Source of the DNA: Gammaproteobacteria bacterium
Lineage (GTDB): Bacteria > Pseudomonadota > Gammaproteobacteria > Pseudomonadales > Pseudohongiellaceae
DNA: 64,000 bases
Direction: 5' to 3'
Assembly: GCA_018661465.1 (NCBI GenBank)
Contig: JABJIC010000028.1
Location: 210,276-274,275 of the forward strand
The position numbers and the translations under genes were made by a program. Under the pieces are notes generated by a model. That model was not told the DNA's origin, did not search any database, and saw only the letters and a list, made by a program, of their open reading frames with translations. This document shows, piece after piece, positions 13,705 through 46,022 of the stretch (positions are counted from its first letter, which is position 1; the number at the start of each line of letters is the position of its first letter).

Positions 13705-14511
13705 GTGAGCAATACAATGAAGCTACTAGCGGTAAAATCAAACTATCGAATGTTCTTCCTGTTATCCCTTTCTATGGTTAGCCTGTTTGCAAGTCAGCAA
13801 TCTATGGCTCAGGAAGTAGGCGATCATCAATACACCACCGAAGCGATTCAGGCAGGTTCCAGGGTCTATACCCAGCAATGTGCCCTCTGTCATGGGCCCC
13901 AAGGAGCTACGGTTGATGGCATCGACCTGAGGCGAGGGCAGTTTCGCACCGCAACCTCAGATGATGATCTGCGTTCTGTAATCGCAGAAGGTGCGGCAGA
14001 AGGTCGAATGCCAGCCTTTAGTCTCAGTTCGGTGGAGCTAAGCGGCGTTATCGCCTTCATAAGAGCAGGCTTTGATCCAGATGGGATTGCAGTAAAGATC
14101 GGTGATCCCGTTCGTGGAAAGGCATTGTTTGAAGGCAAGGGAGAGTGTGCGGATTGTCATCGAGTAAACGGGGTTGGTCCTAGAACAGCGCCTGACTTAA
14201 GTGATATTGGCGCCATTCGTACGCCTGCTTCTTTGCAGCGTAATCTTCTGGACCCAGCTACGGCATTGCTTCCCATAAATCGTCCAATAAGAATTGTCAC
14301 TCGTAACGAAGAAACCATCGTTGGCCGCAGGCTTAATGAGGACACTTACACAGTGCAGGTTCTTGATTCCAATGAGAGGCTAAGGTCCTTGCGTAAATCC
14401 GACCTGGTGACCTACGAAATTAGCGATGCACCATCTAAGCAACCCACAACTCTTTCCAGTGAAGAAGTAGCCGATGTGATCGGCTACATGCTTACCTTGC
14501 GAGGCCTGTAA
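13705..14511 (+). CDS. di-heme c-type cytochrome
   Basis: Signal peptide; CALCH and CADCH heme motifs; overlaps start of the PQQ dehydrogenase. Confidence 0.9.
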   Translation: MSNTMKLLAVKSNYRMFFLLSLSMVSLFASQQSMAQEVGDHQYTTEAIQAGSRVYTQQCALCHGPQGATVDGIDLRRGQFRTATSDDDLRSVIAEGAAEGRMPAFSLSSVELSGVIAFIRAGFDPDGIAVKIGDPVRGKALFEGKGECADCHRVNGVGPRTAPDLSDIGAIRTPASLQRNLLDPATALLPINRPIRIVTRNEETIVGRRLNEDTYTVQVLDSNERLRSLRKSDLVTYEISDAPSKQPTTLSSEEVADVIGYMLTLRGL

Positions 14512-16181
14512 TGACACTAACTAAACTACGTATAAAAACACTTATACTTTTCTGTGGCTCGGTATTGCTACTCTCGCAGAGCATGCTATCCAGCGCACAA
14601 GTTCCATATGAACGTATTCTCAATGCAGCTGATGAGCCAGAAAACTGGTTAACCTATAACGGCGGTTATTCAGCCCAGCGTCATAGCGCCTTGGATCAGA
14701 TCAATGCGGACAATGTCGATAATCTTCAATTGCAATGGACGTTGCAGAATCAGGTTTTCGGTGCCTGGCAATCCAATCCTATTATTGTCGATGGGGTGAT
14801 GTATGTAACCGAGCGACCTAATAGTGTAATGGCTGTTGATGCTGTTACTGGCCGAGTATTCTGGAAGTATCGTCACACTCCTGCTGAGAATTCTCTAGTT
14901 TGCTGTGGTGCGAATAATCGAGGTGTTGCTGTACTCGGAGATATGGTCTACATGGGAACTCTTGATGCTCGACTCGTTGCCCTCGATCGAGTGAATGGTC
15001 AGCCCTTGTGGGATGTAGAAGTAGGTGATGTTAATCAGGCCTACTCAGTTACCATGGCGCCATTAGCTGTTAAGGATAAAATAATAGTTGGTGTAGGCGG
15101 TGGTGAGTTTGGTATTCGTGGCTACGTCGCTGCCTATGACGCCCTTACAGGTGAAGAGGCTTGGAAGACTTACACAATCCCTGGTCCTGGCGAGCCTAAT
15201 CATGATTCCTGGGAAGGTGATGACTGGGAGCATGGTGGTGCGCCGGTGTGGATAACAGGGTCATTTGATCCAGAACTAAATCTAACCTATTGGGGCGTAG
15301 GTAATCCCGGCCCTGACTGGAATGCAGGACAACGGCCTGGAGACAATTTGTATTCTGACTCTGCTATCGCGCTTGATGCCGATACCGGAGAACTAAAATG
15401 GTATTTTCAATTCACACCTAACGATGCATATGACTACGACTCGGTACAGGTGCCAGTTTTGGCAGACATAGTTTGGCGCGGTAGTCCGAAGAAGATAATG
15501 ATGTGGGCTAATCGCAATGGTTACTTCTACGTTCTGGATCGTGTTACTGGTGAGTTCCTTGAAGGTAAGCCCTATGTGACTGTTAACTGGTCCAGCGGTC
15601 TTGATGAAAATGGCAGACCCATTCCAACACCTCAACCTGAAGGTATGCCAACCTTTCCGGGCAATCAGGGAGGCACTAACTGGTATCCACCTTCCTATAG
15701 TCCGAATACTGGACTCTTCTATTTCAGTGCGTGGAAGGACTATGCAACTATCTATCGAGCAGAAGAATCTGATTATGTTCCGGGCCGGGCATTCCTCGGT
15801 GGAGGCTTCTCAGTTTTAGCCCCGGCGCCAGGTGCTCCAACAATCGGGATCGGTCGAACCAATCCTATTAACAACTGGACTAACGAAGTAGGTCACGCCT
15901 CACTGAAGGCTATGGACCCTCAAACTGGTGAAGCGGTGTGGAGCTATGATCAATTCGATGTTAGTGATAGCGGTATGTTAACTACTGGTTCGGACCTACT
16001 TTTTACAGGTGGAAGAGAAGGTTATTTTCATGCAATCGATGCAAAAAATGGTGACCTGTTGTGGAACGTAAATCTGGGAGGTCAGATCGTAATGGCTCCG
16101 GTGACTTTTATGGTTGATGGCATTCAGTATGTATCAGTTATTTCCGGACACGCACTTTCAACTTTTGCGCTTCGAAATTAG
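14511..16181 (+). CDS. PQQ-dependent alcohol dehydrogenase, methanol/ethanol family
   Basis: Vicinal Cys pair (LVCCGANNRG), PQQ propeller repeats, D-Y-D motif at 15432..15440. Confidence 0.93.
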   Translation: MTLTKLRIKTLILFCGSVLLLSQSMLSSAQVPYERILNAADEPENWLTYNGGYSAQRHSALDQINADNVDNLQLQWTLQNQVFGAWQSNPIIVDGVMYVTERPNSVMAVDAVTGRVFWKYRHTPAENSLVCCGANNRGVAVLGDMVYMGTLDARLVALDRVNGQPLWDVEVGDVNQAYSVTMAPLAVKDKIIVGVGGGEFGIRGYVAAYDALTGEEAWKTYTIPGPGEPNHDSWEGDDWEHGGAPVWITGSFDPELNLTYWGVGNPGPDWNAGQRPGDNLYSDSAIALDADTGELKWYFQFTPNDAYDYDSVQVPVLADIVWRGSPKKIMMWANRNGYFYVLDRVTGEFLEGKPYVTVNWSSGLDENGRPIPTPQPEGMPTFPGNQGGTNWYPPSYSPNTGLFYFSAWKDYATIYRAEESDYVPGRAFLGGGFSVLAPAPGAPTIGIGRTNPINNWTNEVGHASLKAMDPQTGEAVWSYDQFDVSDSGMLTTGSDLLFTGGREGYFHAIDAKNGDLLWNVNLGGQIVMAPVTFMVDGIQYVSVISGHALSTFALRN

Positions 16182-16209
16182 TAGCAGAGATTCTGTCTAC
16201 TATTCCAAA

Positions 16210-16241
16210 TTTAACAGGAGTCCACATGGGCTCCTGTTAAA
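16210..16241 (+). terminator. terminator-like hairpin after the first PQQ dehydrogenase
   Basis: TTAACAGGAG-tccacatggg-CTCCTGTTAA, perfect arms, only a weak T-tract on the + strand. Confidence 0.55.
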
Positions 16242-16583
16242 ATAGAAACACCTGTGATTGTTAAGGGGCTAGCGCTGCTCCGTAAGCTTTAACAGCTCAT
16301 TTATCGTACCTATTGAGCAACCCAGAGCCCCTTCCTCCGGTGAGTCTAAAGTCTGTCTGATATGCTTGTTGTGCTGTCATCAAGGAGAAGGCATTAAGAT
16401 CGAAGTAAATCCCCCCTACAAGTCACAAATTGCTACAAATCAAACGAGAACTCCTGAAGCCTTGTGCCCTCTTGCTGTCTATGGACTAAGCCGTGGAAAT
16501 CCTTACAGTTTCGGCCCCTACAGCTCAAATAATCATAGTCTGAGCACTGATTTCTTGGTACTTTTAGCCGGTTAAAGTGAATC

Positions 16584-16606
16584 GCGTTCCCTTCGGATCG
16601 CTTTTT
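16584..16606 (+). promoter_or_regulatory. intrinsic-terminator-like hairpin in the 5' leader of the next PQQ dehydrogenase (possible attenuator)
   Basis: GCGTTCC-CTTC-GGATCGC followed by TTTTT, ending 23 nt before ATG 16630. Confidence 0.4.
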
Positions 16607-16629
16607 GAAAAGTTATAAGTGAGGAAATT

Positions 16630-18687
16630 ATGCAAGCTCCAATTACTGGAAGAATTACAGGGAAATTAGCATCGGCATTCGCTGCTGCAGTTCTGCTGAC
16701 TTCTTCAGGCCTTGCGGCCGCTCAGGACATTCCACTATTCAATACAGAACCGGATGAGTGGTACACGCTGGGGGGTGACTATGCCCATACTCGTTTTACT
16801 CCAGCCGATGAGATTACAGCAGAGAATTTCTCTGACCTCGAAGTTGCCTGGGAATGGGATGGTGCTAGCTTCAACGCGATCAGTGGTCGTTCGACTCCGT
16901 CTTTGATTGACGGCAAGTTGATTACCGTTGCCGGTAACAAGCGTTATGTTATCGCTATTGATCCGAAGACTGGTGACACTATTTGGACATACCGTGAGCC
17001 GGATACTGGCCGTGCTGCATACTCTATGCGTGCCGATTATGGTAAAGGTGTGGGTTATGGAGAAGTCGATGGCCGAGGCGTTATCTATATTGTCTCTCCT
17101 GCGTTTTTTCTCACCGCATTAGATGCAGAAACTGGTGTTCCTCTTGAAGGTTTTGGTCGACCAGTTCCAATTGATGGTTTTCCTGAAACCGGGGTTGTGG
17201 ATCTGATTGCCGATCTTGGTCATCCATATGACCCATACGATGGTATTCCTCTTGAAACTGGTTACATCACTTCATCATCTCCGCCTATCGTTGTTAATGA
17301 CACTGTAATCGTCGGTAACTCAGCCGAGCAGGGTTACCATCAGGCACGTATTGAAAACGTACCCGGTGACATTCTTGCTTATGATGCGAGAACTGGCGCA
17401 CTGAAGTGGAAATTCAACGTAATTCCCAAGCCGGGTGAGTACGGTCATGAAACCTGGGAGAACGATGCCTGGGAATGGACCGGTGATGTTTCTTCCTGGG
17501 CGCCACTGACGGCTGACCCTGTAAACAATCTGGTATATATCCCGACTAACAGTGCCACCATCGATTATTACGGCGGCTTTCGACCCGGCGACAATCTCTA
17601 CGGTGCAGCTCTGATCGCTCTCGATGTTGAAACCGGTGAGCGTGCATGGCACTTCCAGATGGTGAAGCATGAGATCTGGAATTTTGACAATCCAACGGCT
17701 CCAGTACTTCTTGATTTGAATATGCCTGGTCGCGGTACCGTGCCTGCAGTAATGCAGATAACAAAACAAGCTTGGGTATACGCGTTCAATCGTGTAACTG
17801 GTGAGCCACTGTGGCCGATCGTCGATCGTCCGGTTCCGCCTTCGATTGTACCTGGTGAAGTATTGTCACCCACTCAACCACACGTAACCAAGCCCGCTGC
17901 TTACGATATGCAGGGTATTACTGAAGATGATCTAATTGATTTTACTCCCGCATTGAGAGCAGAAGCTTTGGAAGTAATGGATGACTACGTTATGGGTCCT
18001 CTGTTTAATCCGCCAATTCATGCTGACAATGCGATGGGCAAATACGCTGCAATGAATTGCCCAGGTGGTGCTGGTGGTTCAAATATCACTGCGCCTGCAG
18101 TCGCTGATCCGACTACGGGTATGCTCTATGTTTCTTCCCATAAGGCTTGTTTTACATTGCGCCTGATTCCTGGTGAAGAATCTGATCTGTTATTTCCGAA
18201 CTCAACAGGAACCACCACAGCCCGTTATGCTAACGGTGCCCGTGGCGCTACCGCCAGAACTCCTAGATTGGCGTCCGGTATTCCAATCTGGAAGCCGCCC
18301 TATAGCCGCATCACTGCGATAGATATGAACACCGGTGAGCACGCCTGGATGATTCCAACTGGTGAGACTCCAGATCGAATCAAGAACAGCCCGGCGCTGG
18401 ATGGTGTTGATATTGGTAATACAGGTACAGGCGCCTTGGTGCCTATGGTTGTAACCGCCAATATGCTGATCTATTCTGATCAGGCAAGCGATGGAACTCC
18501 AATGCTATACGCAATCGATAAAGCCAGTGGCGACATTGTTGGTGAAATCGAAGCGCCAGCGAGAAGTAGCTACGGCATGAGCTCCTGGGTCCTGGACGGA
18601 CACCAATACATCATGTTGCAGACTGGCTCCAAGCTAACTGCCATGGCATTGCCAGGTGCGCGTGACGAGGGTGGTGACGCTCACTAA
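16630..18687 (+). CDS. PQQ-dependent dehydrogenase, glucose/quinate-like propeller family, secreted
   Basis: Signal peptide, PQQ propeller repeats, HEIWNFDNPTAPVLLDL. Confidence 0.92.
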   Translation: MQAPITGRITGKLASAFAAAVLLTSSGLAAAQDIPLFNTEPDEWYTLGGDYAHTRFTPADEITAENFSDLEVAWEWDGASFNAISGRSTPSLIDGKLITVAGNKRYVIAIDPKTGDTIWTYREPDTGRAAYSMRADYGKGVGYGEVDGRGVIYIVSPAFFLTALDAETGVPLEGFGRPVPIDGFPETGVVDLIADLGHPYDPYDGIPLETGYITSSSPPIVVNDTVIVGNSAEQGYHQARIENVPGDILAYDARTGALKWKFNVIPKPGEYGHETWENDAWEWTGDVSSWAPLTADPVNNLVYIPTNSATIDYYGGFRPGDNLYGAALIALDVETGERAWHFQMVKHEIWNFDNPTAPVLLDLNMPGRGTVPAVMQITKQAWVYAFNRVTGEPLWPIVDRPVPPSIVPGEVLSPTQPHVTKPAAYDMQGITEDDLIDFTPALRAEALEVMDDYVMGPLFNPPIHADNAMGKYAAMNCPGGAGGSNITAPAVADPTTGMLYVSSHKACFTLRLIPGEESDLLFPNSTGTTTARYANGARGATARTPRLASGIPIWKPPYSRITAIDMNTGEHAWMIPTGETPDRIKNSPALDGVDIGNTGTGALVPMVVTANMLIYSDQASDGTPMLYAIDKASGDIVGEIEAPARSSYGMSSWVLDGHQYIMLQTGSKLTAMALPGARDEGGDAH

Positions 18688-19948: not shown

Positions 19949-21073
19949 CTAACTTTTCGAAAGGGTATTTTTTGATGTAGCGAATCTGGAGAGGTTTAGT
20001 TCTTCTCGAACTTGTTGTCCTAAATCAGTTTCCATGTTGTCCACAGGGATTCCGATGGAGTCAGCGATTCTCACCATACGCTGAAAATTTGCTGCAACAC
20101 CGGCAGCATCTACCAGGACGTTTCCACCAGCTTTGGCCAGTAGTGCCTCTCTAGATTCAGAGAGTGAAACAGCCTCACCGCTTGCCAGAGCCTCAGCAAA
20201 TTTCATCAATTCTTCGCCGTGTTCTATTCCTGTGGCTGCTGCTGAGGCATCGCCATTGACACCCTGGATGTCGATTTCAGTTTGATTGGTCAGCGCGCTC
20301 GCACGGAGCATCGATGCATGTGCACTGGTTCAGTAGAAACACTGGTTAATAGCGGACACTCGTCCTGCGACTAGTTCCATCTGCATGCGATCGATACTGC
20401 GATCTTCTTGCTTGAACATGCTTCCCATTCCTTCCATGGAAAGGTATTGCGCGTTTGAGACCTTCATCCAGCCCCTTAAGGCATCTGGAACAAGACTGAG
20501 CGCTCTTAACACATTGGCTGTCCGCCCGTTTGGCCAAAGATCTGCTTCTTCACCCACTGCGCCATCTGCAGGAATTGTGGGAACGAAGCCGATGTCATCG
20601 CGGAGATGCTGAGGTCGATGCAGAGAAGGTTCGCCCGATTGTGCTTCGGGCAAAGGCTCTGGGTTCAACCCTAGAGCTCGATTAAATTCGTCAATACTGA
20701 ATAGAGTAACCGTAATGCCAGTCAGCTCCACATAGGCTTCCTTAGATAGACCCTGGTTTGCATTGTTTTCCACCCATGCACGGGTGATTCGAGTTTGGTC
20801 GGTAATTATTCGATGGATGGCATCTACGGCGATAGCAGGCAATGATGTGCTGCAGCTGTGTTCACCTTCAAAATGATAGGGAGAAAGAGCTTGCTTACGA
20901 TCGGTGCAATAGTTGCAGGAATAGGCATTTCTGACTTCCTGGGCAATTTCTACACGCTGAGCACCGGTCCACCAGTTGCCAGGCAAGGACAGCGACGTCC
21001 AATATTCCTGGTAAGCGTCCTTGATGTCTTGCCGAATAGGGAACTGGCAATCACTGTATTGAAATTGACTCAT
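19949..21073 (-). CDS. AhpD-like / carboxymuconolactone decarboxylase-like protein, candidate selenoprotein (about 374 aa) read through TGA at 20330..20332 as Sec; otherwise called as two ORFs (20330..21073 and 19949..20311)
   Basis: Both ORFs are in the same frame; junction reads ELVAGRVSAINQCFY-[TGA]-TSAHASMLRASALTNQ, i.e. CxxUxxxH at the AhpD motif; no other in-frame stop; N-terminal half also has a CNYC motif. Confidence 0.82.
20294..20313 (-). promoter_or_regulatory. candidate bacterial SECIS (bSECIS) hairpin
   Basis: mRNA sense CG(A)UGCUC-[CGUGC]-GAGCGCG: 7 bp stem with one bulged A, 5-nt loop with G at loop position 2; that G is the 26th nt after the UGA. Confidence 0.55.
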
Positions 21074-23518: not shown

Positions 23519-23935
23519 TCAAGGGGCAGGAATGATGTTCAATGTTTCTAAAGTAGGGGAGTTGGCTTTGAGATCCTGTGCTCCTGACGGGAAGTTATTA
23601 ACTTGCAGTAGAAAGGCCAGTAAATCCTGATAGGTTTCTGTGCCCAGGCTTGCAGGGCGGTCAGAGGGCATGTTCTCGCGCATTTTGGTGTAGAGCTCGG
23701 CAAGGCTGCGACCTTCCCAGATAAACATAAAGCTCATTCCTAACAGACTGGGAGTGTTGCTGTTTCCCCCGAGGTTACTGCCATGACAAGATTCACAATT
23801 TGCTCGGTAAGCCAGTTGCCCGCGGCTCGCTTGTTCTTCGCTGTAGACTCCATCCCAGATATTTGTCTGTGCAAATAGTGGAGATGTGGAGGCGCAGACT
23901 AACAACAATGAAATAACAAAGTTAAATTTTCCCAT
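23519..23935 (-). CDS. c-type cytochrome (ATG at 23935 preferred)
   Basis: MGKFNFVISLLLVCASTSPLFAQ signal peptide; CESCHG heme motif. Confidence 0.88.
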   Translation of the reverse strand: MGKFNFVISLLLVCASTSPLFAQTNIWDGVYSEEQASRGQLAYRANCESCHGSNLGGNSNTPSLLGMSFMFIWEGRSLAELYTKMRENMPSDRPASLGTETYQDLLAFLLQVNNFPSGAQDLKANSPTLETLNIIPAP

Positions 23936-23937
23936 AG

Positions 23938-25731
23938 CTATTTTTCCGGCAGGGCGAAGACATGCATAGCATTGCCATTTCGTGGACGTTTCAATTCGCT
24001 TGCCAATTGCCGAGGTAGCGAGGCGGCCCAACTCGCTCCGCTGGTGCCAGAGGGCAGGGCGATATATTGCCGGCCATCGACTTCATAGGATATAGGAAAG
24101 CCTTGAGCAGAGGTGGTGACTCTGGTTTGCCAAAGTACTTCTCCATTTTCGGCATCCAGGGCGTACATTTTTCGATCCCAGTCGCCGAAAAACACCAAGC
24201 CGCCACCGGTAGTCAGAGCCGCCGTATTAACCGGAGCGCGAGATCGAAATCGCCATTTAACTTCGCCGCTGGGGATGTCCAATACCAGAAGCTCGCCAAG
24301 ATTATCGCCGGCATCCGGGTGTGGGTAATTAATGCGCCTCACTGGACCGGTTCCGCCGCCACCTAATTCTCGTTCCGTTGGACCGAAGGTGGCGAGTTCA
24401 CAATTCAGGGTGATGGGGATATACATGGCGCTGGTTTGTGGGGAATAGGCCATCGCTCTCCAGCTCTTAAAACCGGAGGTGCTGGGACACATATCGATCT
24501 GCTCACCAATGCGGGGAATCATCCCATCACGATATCGAACGGAACCGGTCACCGGGTCTACGTTTACGATATTCTGATACCCAATATCGGTGGCTTTTAT
24601 GACTTCGCCACTGACTCTATCCAGTTCCCAGAGAATGCCCAGCTTGCCCATCTTGAACAGAGACTGTCGGCCATCGATATCAACGAGAATGTTCTCAAAT
24701 ACCTCATCCATGTCCTGAGTTTCTCCAGGAAGGTGTTGGTAGTACCAGATCATCTCCCCGGTGTCAGGATTAAGTGCCAGAGTAGAATTAGTATAGAGAG
24801 CATCGGCATCTGTTCCTCGCACGGCCCTTGCCCAGGGCTTTGCCTGAGCCGTTCCCCAGTAAATCAAATTGGTTTTCGGGTCATAAGACCCGGCAATCCA
24901 GGCATCGGATCCTGCGCGAAATCTCAGCGGTAAATCATCCCAGGTGTCGCCACCGGGCTCTCCGGGACGGGCGACGGTTGAAGTTCGCCACAATTCTTCT
25001 CCACTCTCCGAATCGTGTCCGGTGATGAAGCATACGTCCTCTTTGTAGCGGCCGCAACCACTGATGCCAGTTATGAGTTTTCCATCAGCGATGATGGGGC
25101 CGGCAACATAAAAATAGCCTAACTCAGGATTCGCTGTCTGGGTTTCCCAAACTAATCGACCTGTTCTAATGTCGATAGCCACGATACTTGCGTTCTCGGT
25201 AGCGGCATATATCTTATCTCCATAGATCGCGATGTTTTTCTGAACACCTCTGCCAACGCCTGCATAGGCGGTGGCCGCCATCACAGATTGAACTCTTTCT
25301 TCGGCCGGAACTGCGGCAGCTATGGAGCCTTCCAGAGCTTCGGTGATGCCTGGCCTATATTCCCAGATCAGGTCGCCAGTGGCCGCATTAAGCGCCTGTA
25401 TTACTCCGCGAGGTGCCGGAATGAACATCACTCCATCATGAACCAGAGGGGCTGCTTCGCCGGCTCCGGTGTCATCCATGGCCCAGGACCAGACCAGTTG
25501 TAGCTGATCCACATTGTCAGTATTAATTTGACTAAGCGAGCTATATCCCCAGGAAGCAGTATTGCCTCGCCAACTTAGCCAGTCTCCGGGGAGAGGATTG
25601 TTCAGGGTATCATCCGTGACCGGGGCGATATCTGACAGCTGGCTGAATGCCATGGTGCTGAAGATGAATAGCATGCAAGCCATTAGAAAGTGGTAAAACT
25701 TGTTGACTCTATGCAGGCTGGAACAATTCAT
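23938..25731 (-). CDS. PQQ-dependent dehydrogenase, secreted
   Basis: Signal peptide; PQQ propeller repeats (NAATGDLIWEYRPG, DAENGEVLWQTRV); D-M-D motif at 24706..24714. Confidence 0.92.
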   Translation of the reverse strand: MNCSSLHRVNKFYHFLMACMLFIFSTMAFSQLSDIAPVTDDTLNNPLPGDWLSWRGNTASWGYSSLSQINTDNVDQLQLVWSWAMDDTGAGEAAPLVHDGVMFIPAPRGVIQALNAATGDLIWEYRPGITEALEGSIAAAVPAEERVQSVMAATAYAGVGRGVQKNIAIYGDKIYAATENASIVAIDIRTGRLVWETQTANPELGYFYVAGPIIADGKLITGISGCGRYKEDVCFITGHDSESGEELWRTSTVARPGEPGGDTWDDLPLRFRAGSDAWIAGSYDPKTNLIYWGTAQAKPWARAVRGTDADALYTNSTLALNPDTGEMIWYYQHLPGETQDMDEVFENILVDIDGRQSLFKMGKLGILWELDRVSGEVIKATDIGYQNIVNVDPVTGSVRYRDGMIPRIGEQIDMCPSTSGFKSWRAMAYSPQTSAMYIPITLNCELATFGPTERELGGGGTGPVRRINYPHPDAGDNLGELLVLDIPSGEVKWRFRSRAPVNTAALTTGGGLVFFGDWDRKMYALDAENGEVLWQTRVTTSAQGFPISYEVDGRQYIALPSGTSGASWAASLPRQLASELKRPRNGNAMHVFALPEK

Positions 25732-43558: not shown

Positions 43559-44194
43559 ATGAAGGATTCGGAAGACAAGGTTGGCGGCGTAGTAGAAAAC
43601 ACGCCTGTTAATCGAAAGGGAGCTAAAACAGTTCCGCGTAGGGCTTTATTCAAGATGGGCCTGGTAACCGGTGTTGCAGTACCAATGGCAACTCTGGGGA
43701 GCGCTGCACTTGGTCAGCCGCCAAACAGGGCTAGACCGCAGCAAGGTGATTTTTTAGTATTCGAAGAAGGACCTCATCAAGGCGAAGTGGTCCGACCTGA
43801 ATTACTCGAACTGGAACAAAAACCAGTTTCGGCTTTGGCTCGGGATCCGGAGACGGATACGTTGAGAGATGGCTCAAGGCTCAACCGCATCATGATTACT
43901 TTAATCGACAATGAAAAAATGAGTGAACGTTATCGCTCGAATGCCGCAGAGGGTGTAATAGCCTATTCGGCTATATGTACCCATACCGGCTGCGATGTCA
44001 TTAACTGGGACGCAGGACTCCTTCGTATGGCGTGTCCCTGTCATGAATCCCAATTCGATATTTACAATGGAGGTAATGTGGTTGGTGGCCCCGCTCCCAG
44101 ACCGCTTGCTATGTTGCCACTTGAGGTCGTCGATGGTGAGGTAAAAGTCGCCGCCGCTTTCAGGGGACGGGTTGGATTTACTCAGCAGTTTTGA
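43559..44194 (+). CDS. Rieske (2Fe-2S) protein with TAT-type leader
   Basis: CTHTGCDVINW ... CPCHESQFD; PRRALFKMG leader. Confidence 0.93.
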   Translation: MKDSEDKVGGVVENTPVNRKGAKTVPRRALFKMGLVTGVAVPMATLGSAALGQPPNRARPQQGDFLVFEEGPHQGEVVRPELLELEQKPVSALARDPETDTLRDGSRLNRIMITLIDNEKMSERYRSNAAEGVIAYSAICTHTGCDVINWDAGLLRMACPCHESQFDIYNGGNVVGGPAPRPLAMLPLEVVDGEVKVAAAFRGRVGFTQQF

Positions 44195-44306
44195 AACACA
44201 GTAGTAACAACACAAAAAGTTAGAATGTAAAAGTTAAATCAGGTAGTTAAAACGAATAGCTAAAAACCAATAGTTAAAACCAAAAAGTTCAATCAAAGGA
44301 AATTCC

Positions 44307-46022
44307 ATGAAGAGTCGCTCACTACTTAGTCTGATTCTGTTGCTATGCACAGGTTCATTGTTTGCCCAATCTTTGCCGCCGTACAATCCAGTTACCGAGG
44401 AAAGGTTGCAGAATCCTGAAGAAAGCAACTGGTTAATGTATCGAGGAACTTATGATTCACATGGTTATAGTCCTCTGGATCAGATTGATACTAGCAATGT
44501 AGAAGATCTGGTGCCGGTGTGGAGTTTTTCAACAGGGCTTAGAGAGGGGCATCAGGCACCTCCCATCGTAAATGATGGCTACATGTATGTGACGACTCCT
44601 CAGAATCATATTCTGGCAATCAACGCCCGTACCGGTGATTTGATCTGGCGCTATGTAAGGTACTTGCCGGATGACTTGCAGCAATTTCATCCAACAAATC
44701 GTGGTGTTGCCTTATTTGGTGATCGCGTCTACATGGCGACCGTAGATGCTTTCCTGGTTTCTCTCGATGCCCTAACAGGTGAAGTTATTTGGGAGGTAGC
44801 TGTTGAGGACTATTACAACGGCTATTACATGACCATGGCTCCACTAATCGCGGATGGGAAAGTAATGGTTGGGGTTTCCGGAGGAGAGTTAGGAATTCGT
44901 GGATTCGTTGCAGCCTTCGATGTGCTAACTGGCGAAGAAGCCTGGAAGACTTACACAATCCCTGCTCCTGGCGAGCCTGGTTCTGAGTCTTGGCCTGGGG
45001 ACACCTGGAAGACGGGTGGGGTGCCAGTTTGGTTAACCGGCTCCTATGACCCTGAATATAATATTGCCTATTGGGGCACAGGAAATGGTGGTCCCTGGAT
45101 GGGAGACACGCGTCCCGGTGATAACCTCTATTCGAGTTCGGTGATAGCTCTCGACGTTGCTACAGGTGAGCTCACCAGCCATCATCAATATCATTGGAAT
45201 GATTCATGGGATTGGGACGAGGTCTCTGCTCCACTATTGATCGATTACGAACGAAATGGCGAGACTGTAAATGGAATGGTTCATCCCGGTCGAAATGGAT
45301 ATCTGTGGTTTCTTGAGCGTGAAGAGGATGCCATTAATTTTGTTGAAGCCGATGCCTACGTTTATCAAGATGTTTTCACCAGCATAGATCCAGTCACTGG
45401 ACGTCCCGAATATGATATGACCAAGAAGCCGGGCACAGGCTACGAAGCCAGCTTTTGTCCATCACTCTGGGGTGGTAAAGACTGGCCACCAGCGGCTTTT
45501 AATCCTGAATCGCGGCTAATGTTTATTCCAGCAAACGACAATGTGTGCTCCACCATGGTGGGTGAAGAAGTTCAATATAGCCCAGGCCGATCCTATATGG
45601 GTCGAGGCACTTCGGAAAACGGAGGCTTCTTTGTTCGTCCTGGCACCGATCATGTGGGTGAGCTTCAGGCATGGAATGTGGATACAGGCGAACGTGCCTG
45701 GACTACCACTTTCGAAAGCCAAAACTGGGGGCCGGTTTTATCAACAGGCGGTGACTTGGTGTTTATGGGTGGCACCAATGATCGATACTTTCGTGCCTTC
45801 GATTCCAATACCGGCGAGACTCTCTGGGAGCAGCGAACCAACTCAGGTATTACCGGCGTTCCGGTGACCTATACCCTCGACGGCAAGCAATATGTGGCTG
45901 TTCAGTCCGGTTGGGGAGTTGATGCGCAACGAGAGCAGAACCTGCTGAATATGGCGAAGGGTGAAAACCATTATGTTCCACAAGGGGGCGTAATTTGGGT
46001 GTTCGCATTGCCCGATGAATAA
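44307..46022 (+). CDS. PQQ-dependent dehydrogenase, methanol/ethanol-like, secreted
   Basis: Signal peptide; PQQ propeller repeats; GGELGIRGFVAAFDVLTGEEAWKTYTIPAPGEPG; D-W-D motif at 45210..45218. Confidence 0.92.
   Translation: MKSRSLLSLILLLCTGSLFAQSLPPYNPVTEERLQNPEESNWLMYRGTYDSHGYSPLDQIDTSNVEDLVPVWSFSTGLREGHQAPPIVNDGYMYVTTPQNHILAINARTGDLIWRYVRYLPDDLQQFHPTNRGVALFGDRVYMATVDAFLVSLDALTGEVIWEVAVEDYYNGYYMTMAPLIADGKVMVGVSGGELGIRGFVAAFDVLTGEEAWKTYTIPAPGEPGSESWPGDTWKTGGVPVWLTGSYDPEYNIAYWGTGNGGPWMGDTRPGDNLYSSSVIALDVATGELTSHHQYHWNDSWDWDEVSAPLLIDYERNGETVNGMVHPGRNGYLWFLEREEDAINFVEADAYVYQDVFTSIDPVTGRPEYDMTKKPGTGYEASFCPSLWGGKDWPPAAFNPESRLMFIPANDNVCSTMVGEEVQYSPGRSYMGRGTSENGGFFVRPGTDHVGELQAWNVDTGERAWTTTFESQNWGPVLSTGGDLVFMGGTNDRYFRAFDSNTGETLWEQRTNSGITGVPVTYTLDGKQYVAVQSGWGVDAQREQNLLNMAKGENHYVPQGGVIWVFALPDE

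Follow-up and report, generated by a model that had tools for sequence, protein, structure and literature searches.

The window analysed here, a stretch of 64,000 nucleotides, carries on its minus strand (positions 19949..21073) a complete gene for an AhpD-related protein, which standard gene finders split at an in-frame TGA. Two minus-strand open reading frames are reported, one of 247 aa at 20330..21073 and one of 120 aa at 19949..20311, and the description of them in an earlier note on this DNA, as lying in one frame and separated by a TGA and six codons, is exact to the base: the TGA at 20332-20330 is followed by codons for T-S-A-H-A-S and then by the ATG of the second frame. Joined, the frame runs from an ATG at 21073-21071 to a TAG stop at 19951-19949 and, with the TGA translated as U, comprises 374 codons for a predicted product of 374 aa with selenocysteine (Sec) at residue 248. 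The motif around the TGA (20330..20332, minus strand) is C245-F-Y-U248-T-S-A-H252, and the translation agrees with the note's placing of the TGA on the second cysteine of a CxxCxxxH motif (the second position of CxxU), with 126 sense codons beyond it. Were the UGA taken solely as a stop, annotation would show a pseudogene or a pair of fragments here, without the catalytic residue.

Membership of a known selenoprotein family

The joined protein matches the NCBIfam family NF041238 at 459.2 bits (E 1e-137; curated cut-off 175 bits), with residues 13-365 aligned to profile positions 1-356 of 357. This family, AhpD_rel_CFYUT, is named "alkylhydroperoxidase-related (seleno)protein" and annotated as AhpD-related only; its motif, CFYU(T), whose fourth residue is Sec or Cys, is found at residues 245-249 of the joined protein as CFYUT. 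Pfam detects the CMD core only, through a match to PF02627 over residues 221-264 (28.3 bits against a gathering cut-off of 23), and at 42.3 bits the protein does not reach the TIGR01926 cut-off of 81.8.

NF041238 is listed as a selenoprotein family with the motif CxxU in a 2026 review (PMC13188914), which identifies it with the Sargasso Sea metagenome's hypothetical protein 1, a CxxU selenoprotein known in 2005 from four sequences (PMC1088965). The earlier note's statement that AhpD-like selenoproteins have been reported from marine metagenomes is right, and this is the family concerned. Given its full-length match, common motif and common domain architecture, the present protein is an ordinary member of NF041238 with nothing distinctive about it. 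It resembles hypothetical protein 1 in its CxxU motif, UGA-encoded Sec, marine origin and predicted SECIS, the two being equated through the review and by description only; whereas hypothetical protein 1 came from four environmental sequences, the present gene lies in a draft genome that also holds Sec machinery. The selenoproteins AhpD-like 1 (COG2128) and AhpD-like 2 (PF02627) of the GOS set (PMC2398784) are likewise CxxU proteins of AhpD/CMD type from marine bacteria. AhpD-like (TIGR01926) and CMD-like (PF02627) selenoproteins are entered apart from NF041238 in PMC13188914, and compared with these the present protein falls under the TIGR01926 cut-off yet over that of the broad PF02627.

Conservation of the TGA and the predicted SECIS element

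Among the homologous genes, all of which were read at the Sec column, the codon is TGA in 90 of 91 and TGC in the remaining one; the count leaves aside one locus (L082) in which the search motif was not shown. The earlier note had named close homologs without Cys or Sec at this column as evidence against its reading, and none of the 91 has any other residue there. Within the order, NF041238 is over its cut-off in 13 of 296 genomes, 12 of which have one in-frame TGA per copy, while the thirteenth (G281) has no stop and reads CFYC. SelB is over cut-off in 40 of the 296, including all 12 TGA genomes and not G281, a co-occurrence for which Fisher's test gives P = 7.4e-12, to be read as indicative given that related genomes are not independent. 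Similarly, tRNA-Sec is over cut-off in 12 of 12 TGA genomes and below it in G281.

In the window's own GTDB family the gene occurs in 23 of 137 genomes, with one TGA in every copy among those listed; two congeners (G083 and G139) have kept SelB and have no NF041238 gene. A scan of named genomes yielded 79 further loci, mostly from marine gammaproteobacterial MAGs, and searches of the plasmid and phage collections found no relatives. Since the window's genome is the only one of 369 in a sample of the class to have the gene, its distribution is patchy. We note that in one genome (G013, contig C321:378-5332, locus L030) the AhpD-related selenoprotein gene shares a 5-kb stretch of one contig with selB and tRNA-Sec, and that in another (G003, locus L029, minus strand) the gene just downstream of the NF041238 gene also has an in-frame TGA, reading NRSVDWUPFC, which would make the two adjacent selenoprotein genes.

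Silent sites were compared across homolog pairs of less than 72% protein identity, identical residues being scored for identical codons. Against a mean excess of codon identity of 0.02 across 321 columns, the five top values (0.50 to 0.71) fall at codons +8, +9, +10, +6 and +11 past the TGA, and the sixth-highest at the Tyr codon immediately 5' of it. Codons +1 to +14 exceed the rest (Mann-Whitney P = 6e-6, again indicative, as neither the columns nor the related sequences are fully independent). This conserved stretch folds as GCUC-NG[G/U]NN-GAGC, in which the inner 3 bp pair in all 90 TGA genes, 89 of which also keep the NG[G/U] loop; three sequences have one stem pair changed from C-G to U-A, and in the Cys homolog the corresponding positions read CTT-CAAAT-TAA, breaking the pairing. 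By this comparison a predicted SECIS hairpin is present just 3' of the UGA, its apical part being GCUC-CGUGC-GAGC at 20297..20309 (minus strand).

The bacterial SECIS model of PMC13188914 has a 3-9 nt apical loop whose first two positions include a G, a stem of 4-16 bp, a distance of 16-37 nt from the UGA and an energy of at most -7.5 kcal/mol. The present hairpin agrees with it, having the loop CGUGC, which starts 24 nt past the UGA, a 4-bp upper stem and a fold holding the hairpin at -11.2 kcal/mol. The hairpin is weakly supported by thermodynamics: the unconstrained minimum-energy fold past the TGA has a different stem, folding energies of 89 TGA members compared with synonymous recodings give a mean z of just -0.4, and 4.7% of synonymous recodings of the present gene fold equally well. 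Free-energy folding was accordingly dropped as proof of the SECIS and replaced by the comparative silent-site evidence. No Rfam model detects the element.

Selenocysteine machinery and the probable reading of the UGA

The window's genome, a draft assembly in 37 contigs that is 97.7% complete, was searched for selA, selB, selC and selD, as the earlier note had advised, and all four are present over their cut-offs: selA at 577 bits, selB at 402 bits, tRNA-Sec (selC) with the anticodon TCA, and selD at 272 bits within a 784-aa protein. The N-terminal part of this last protein looks like an NADH dehydrogenase, a label that comes from reading the sequence and from the Ndh-SelD fusions described in PMC2398784. 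Contig C15 carries selA and selB, some 10.5 kb from each other, and C16 carries selC and selD at widely separated sites. A DUF6538/tyrosine-integrase-like gene starts about 100 bp past tRNA-Sec (L001 1500-3091; G000:C16:136038-137629), which points to selC serving as the attachment site of an integrative element.

Two readings of the TGA other than selenocysteine have to be weighed. The gene could be a pseudogene or carry a sequencing error, a Cys-type AhpD gene having acquired one nonsense mutation or one miscalled base; the interrupted frame and the draft state of the assembly are in keeping with this. Against it, the same TGA recurs in independent assemblies of many species, with family-like codons on either side of it and a hairpin past it that is conserved at silent sites. 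We reject a pseudogene or base error, given the one shared codon position in 90 of 91 homologs and the Sec machinery, and regard it as improbable in the extreme. Alternatively, the UGA might be read as some other residue (Trp, via a code change or suppression), or might purposefully terminate translation to give a 247-aa product. In general, Sec UGA codons often terminate translation in part; nothing specific favours either version here. The column is that of the catalytic second AhpD Cys, its sole alternative is Cys, in a genome without SelB, and a 247-aa product would by itself be without U248, H252 and the remainder of the core. With SelA, SelB, SelC and SelD all present, another residue or a truncated product is very unlikely, and code reassignment is rejected on the conservation of the TGA together with the Sec machinery.

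The UGA is almost certainly decoded as selenocysteine at position 248. The suggestion of the earlier note that a single TGA-encoded Sec gene, and not chance, accounts for the two frames is borne out by the TGA at one codon in nearly all homologs and by a joined frame that spans virtually the whole of the NF041238 profile. We conclude that 19949..21073 is very probably a single intact gene for a Sec-containing, AhpD-related redox protein of this family, expressed through SECIS-directed UGA read-through. In the proposed mechanism the hairpin just 3' of the UGA would recruit SelB and Sec-tRNA(Sec), so that Sec248 is inserted and translation does not stop.

At least four further UGA-containing redoxin genes were seen in the same genome. 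A peroxiredoxin-like gene (L141 208-750; G000:C33:4857-5399; Pfam AhpC-TSA, 101 bits) has an in-frame TGA giving TGGU (TxxU) and is likely a second selenoprotein of the genome. An AhpC/TSA-like gene (L142 200-787, minus strand; G000:C25:97599-98186), with DWUPFC (UxxC), is likely a third, and a ResA-like gene (L143 38-1189; G000:C31:92737-93888), with WASWUGC and 251 bits to NF041054 (WAxxUGC), below the cut-off of 300, is likely a fourth. Another gene, redoxin-like (L144 2-1081, minus strand; G000:C20:265601-266680), has FWUPPC and is much extended at its C-terminus; it matches AhpC-TSA at 40 bits and no NCBIfam family, and may be a selenoprotein of a type that is less well described.

Active site, domain architecture and meaning

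The C-terminal AhpD/CMD core (approximately 19982..20413, minus strand; residues 221-364), marked by the PF02627 match, has sequence matches to the AhpD-like PDB entries 6k40, 2oyo and 3c1l. An AlphaFold2 model (32 homologs) has a pLDDT of 91, and a fold search with the C-terminal half finds AhpD-like structures at a Foldseek probability of 1.00, with no E-value below 0.001. A five-residue proton relay has been described for Mycobacterium tuberculosis AhpD and for PA0269. The relay, Glu-x11-Cys-x-His/Tyr-Cys-x3-His, is complete here as E233, C245, Y247, U248 and H252, and its spacing is identical to that of the protein it was compared against, PA0269 (E36, C48, Y50, C51, H55). By this comparison the predicted Sec248 replaces the second Cys of the relay (the Cys133/Cys51 position). 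The peroxidase-related AhpD-like proteins 6k40, 2oyo, 3c1l, 2prr and PA0269 (2o4d) share the C-terminal core fold and the Glu-Cys-Tyr-Cys/Sec-His relay, but have Cys instead of Sec and are without the N-terminal CxxC domain of about 160 residues.

That domain (residues 1-159; 20597..21073, minus strand), when modelled alone, has a pLDDT of 91. Its sequence gave only unconvincing matches to solved structures, so that fold comparison was needed; the 14 best PDB matches of the model are all AhpD-family chains at Foldseek probabilities of 0.99-1.00, with a best E of 0.006, TM about 0.55 and high rmsd. In the alignment of homologs C53 and C56 of its C53-x-x-C56 motif are invariant, and no Glu or His is found at the relay positions. 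The domain is best read, largely from its model, as a divergent AhpD-like domain, probably duplicated.

From the active site we infer redox chemistry, probably that of a thiol-dependent peroxidase or reductase. Attack by the Sec248 selenolate on a peroxide or similar oxidised substrate would be followed by closure of a selenenylsulfide between Sec248 and Cys245, which a thiol donor would reduce. Electrons may also be handed intramolecularly from the N-terminal CxxC to the CxxU centre; such a two-centre selenoenzyme, needing no separate AhpD-type adaptor, is a tentative idea, and this relay and the exact substrate are guesses. Alternatively, the protein might be a selenoprotein that carries out some other CxxU reaction on the AhpD fold (reductive dehalogenation, disulfide or arsenical chemistry), a possibility we consider the less likely one. 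It would accord with fold matches to the CMD-family debrominase Bmp8 (6ohj, 6ohi), with a family annotation that goes no further than AhpD-related and with the extra CxxC domain, which has no counterpart in simple AhpD; the five relay residues at AhpD spacing, with Sec at the catalytic position, and the peroxidase-related AhpD proteins as closest solved sequences argue instead for the peroxidase-type reading. The gene neighbourhood gives no functional hint, as each neighbouring gene family is found at 8 of the loci at most. Several PQQ-type dehydrogenase genes, some beside cytochrome c-like genes, lie around the locus (window 13705-18687, 23519-25731 and 43559-46022).

The biology at this locus is already known: since NF041238 is curated and listed in PMC13188914, and hypothetical protein 1, with which it is equated there, is described in PMC1088965, the locus is one more, well-supported member of a described family. 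Because of the further UGA-containing redoxin genes, selenium would appear to support a wider peroxide or thiol defence in this organism. NF041238 itself keeps Sec almost always, the lone Cys version being in a genome without SelB, and for this reason the family is well suited to testing cleanly why selenium is indispensable to some redox enzymes.
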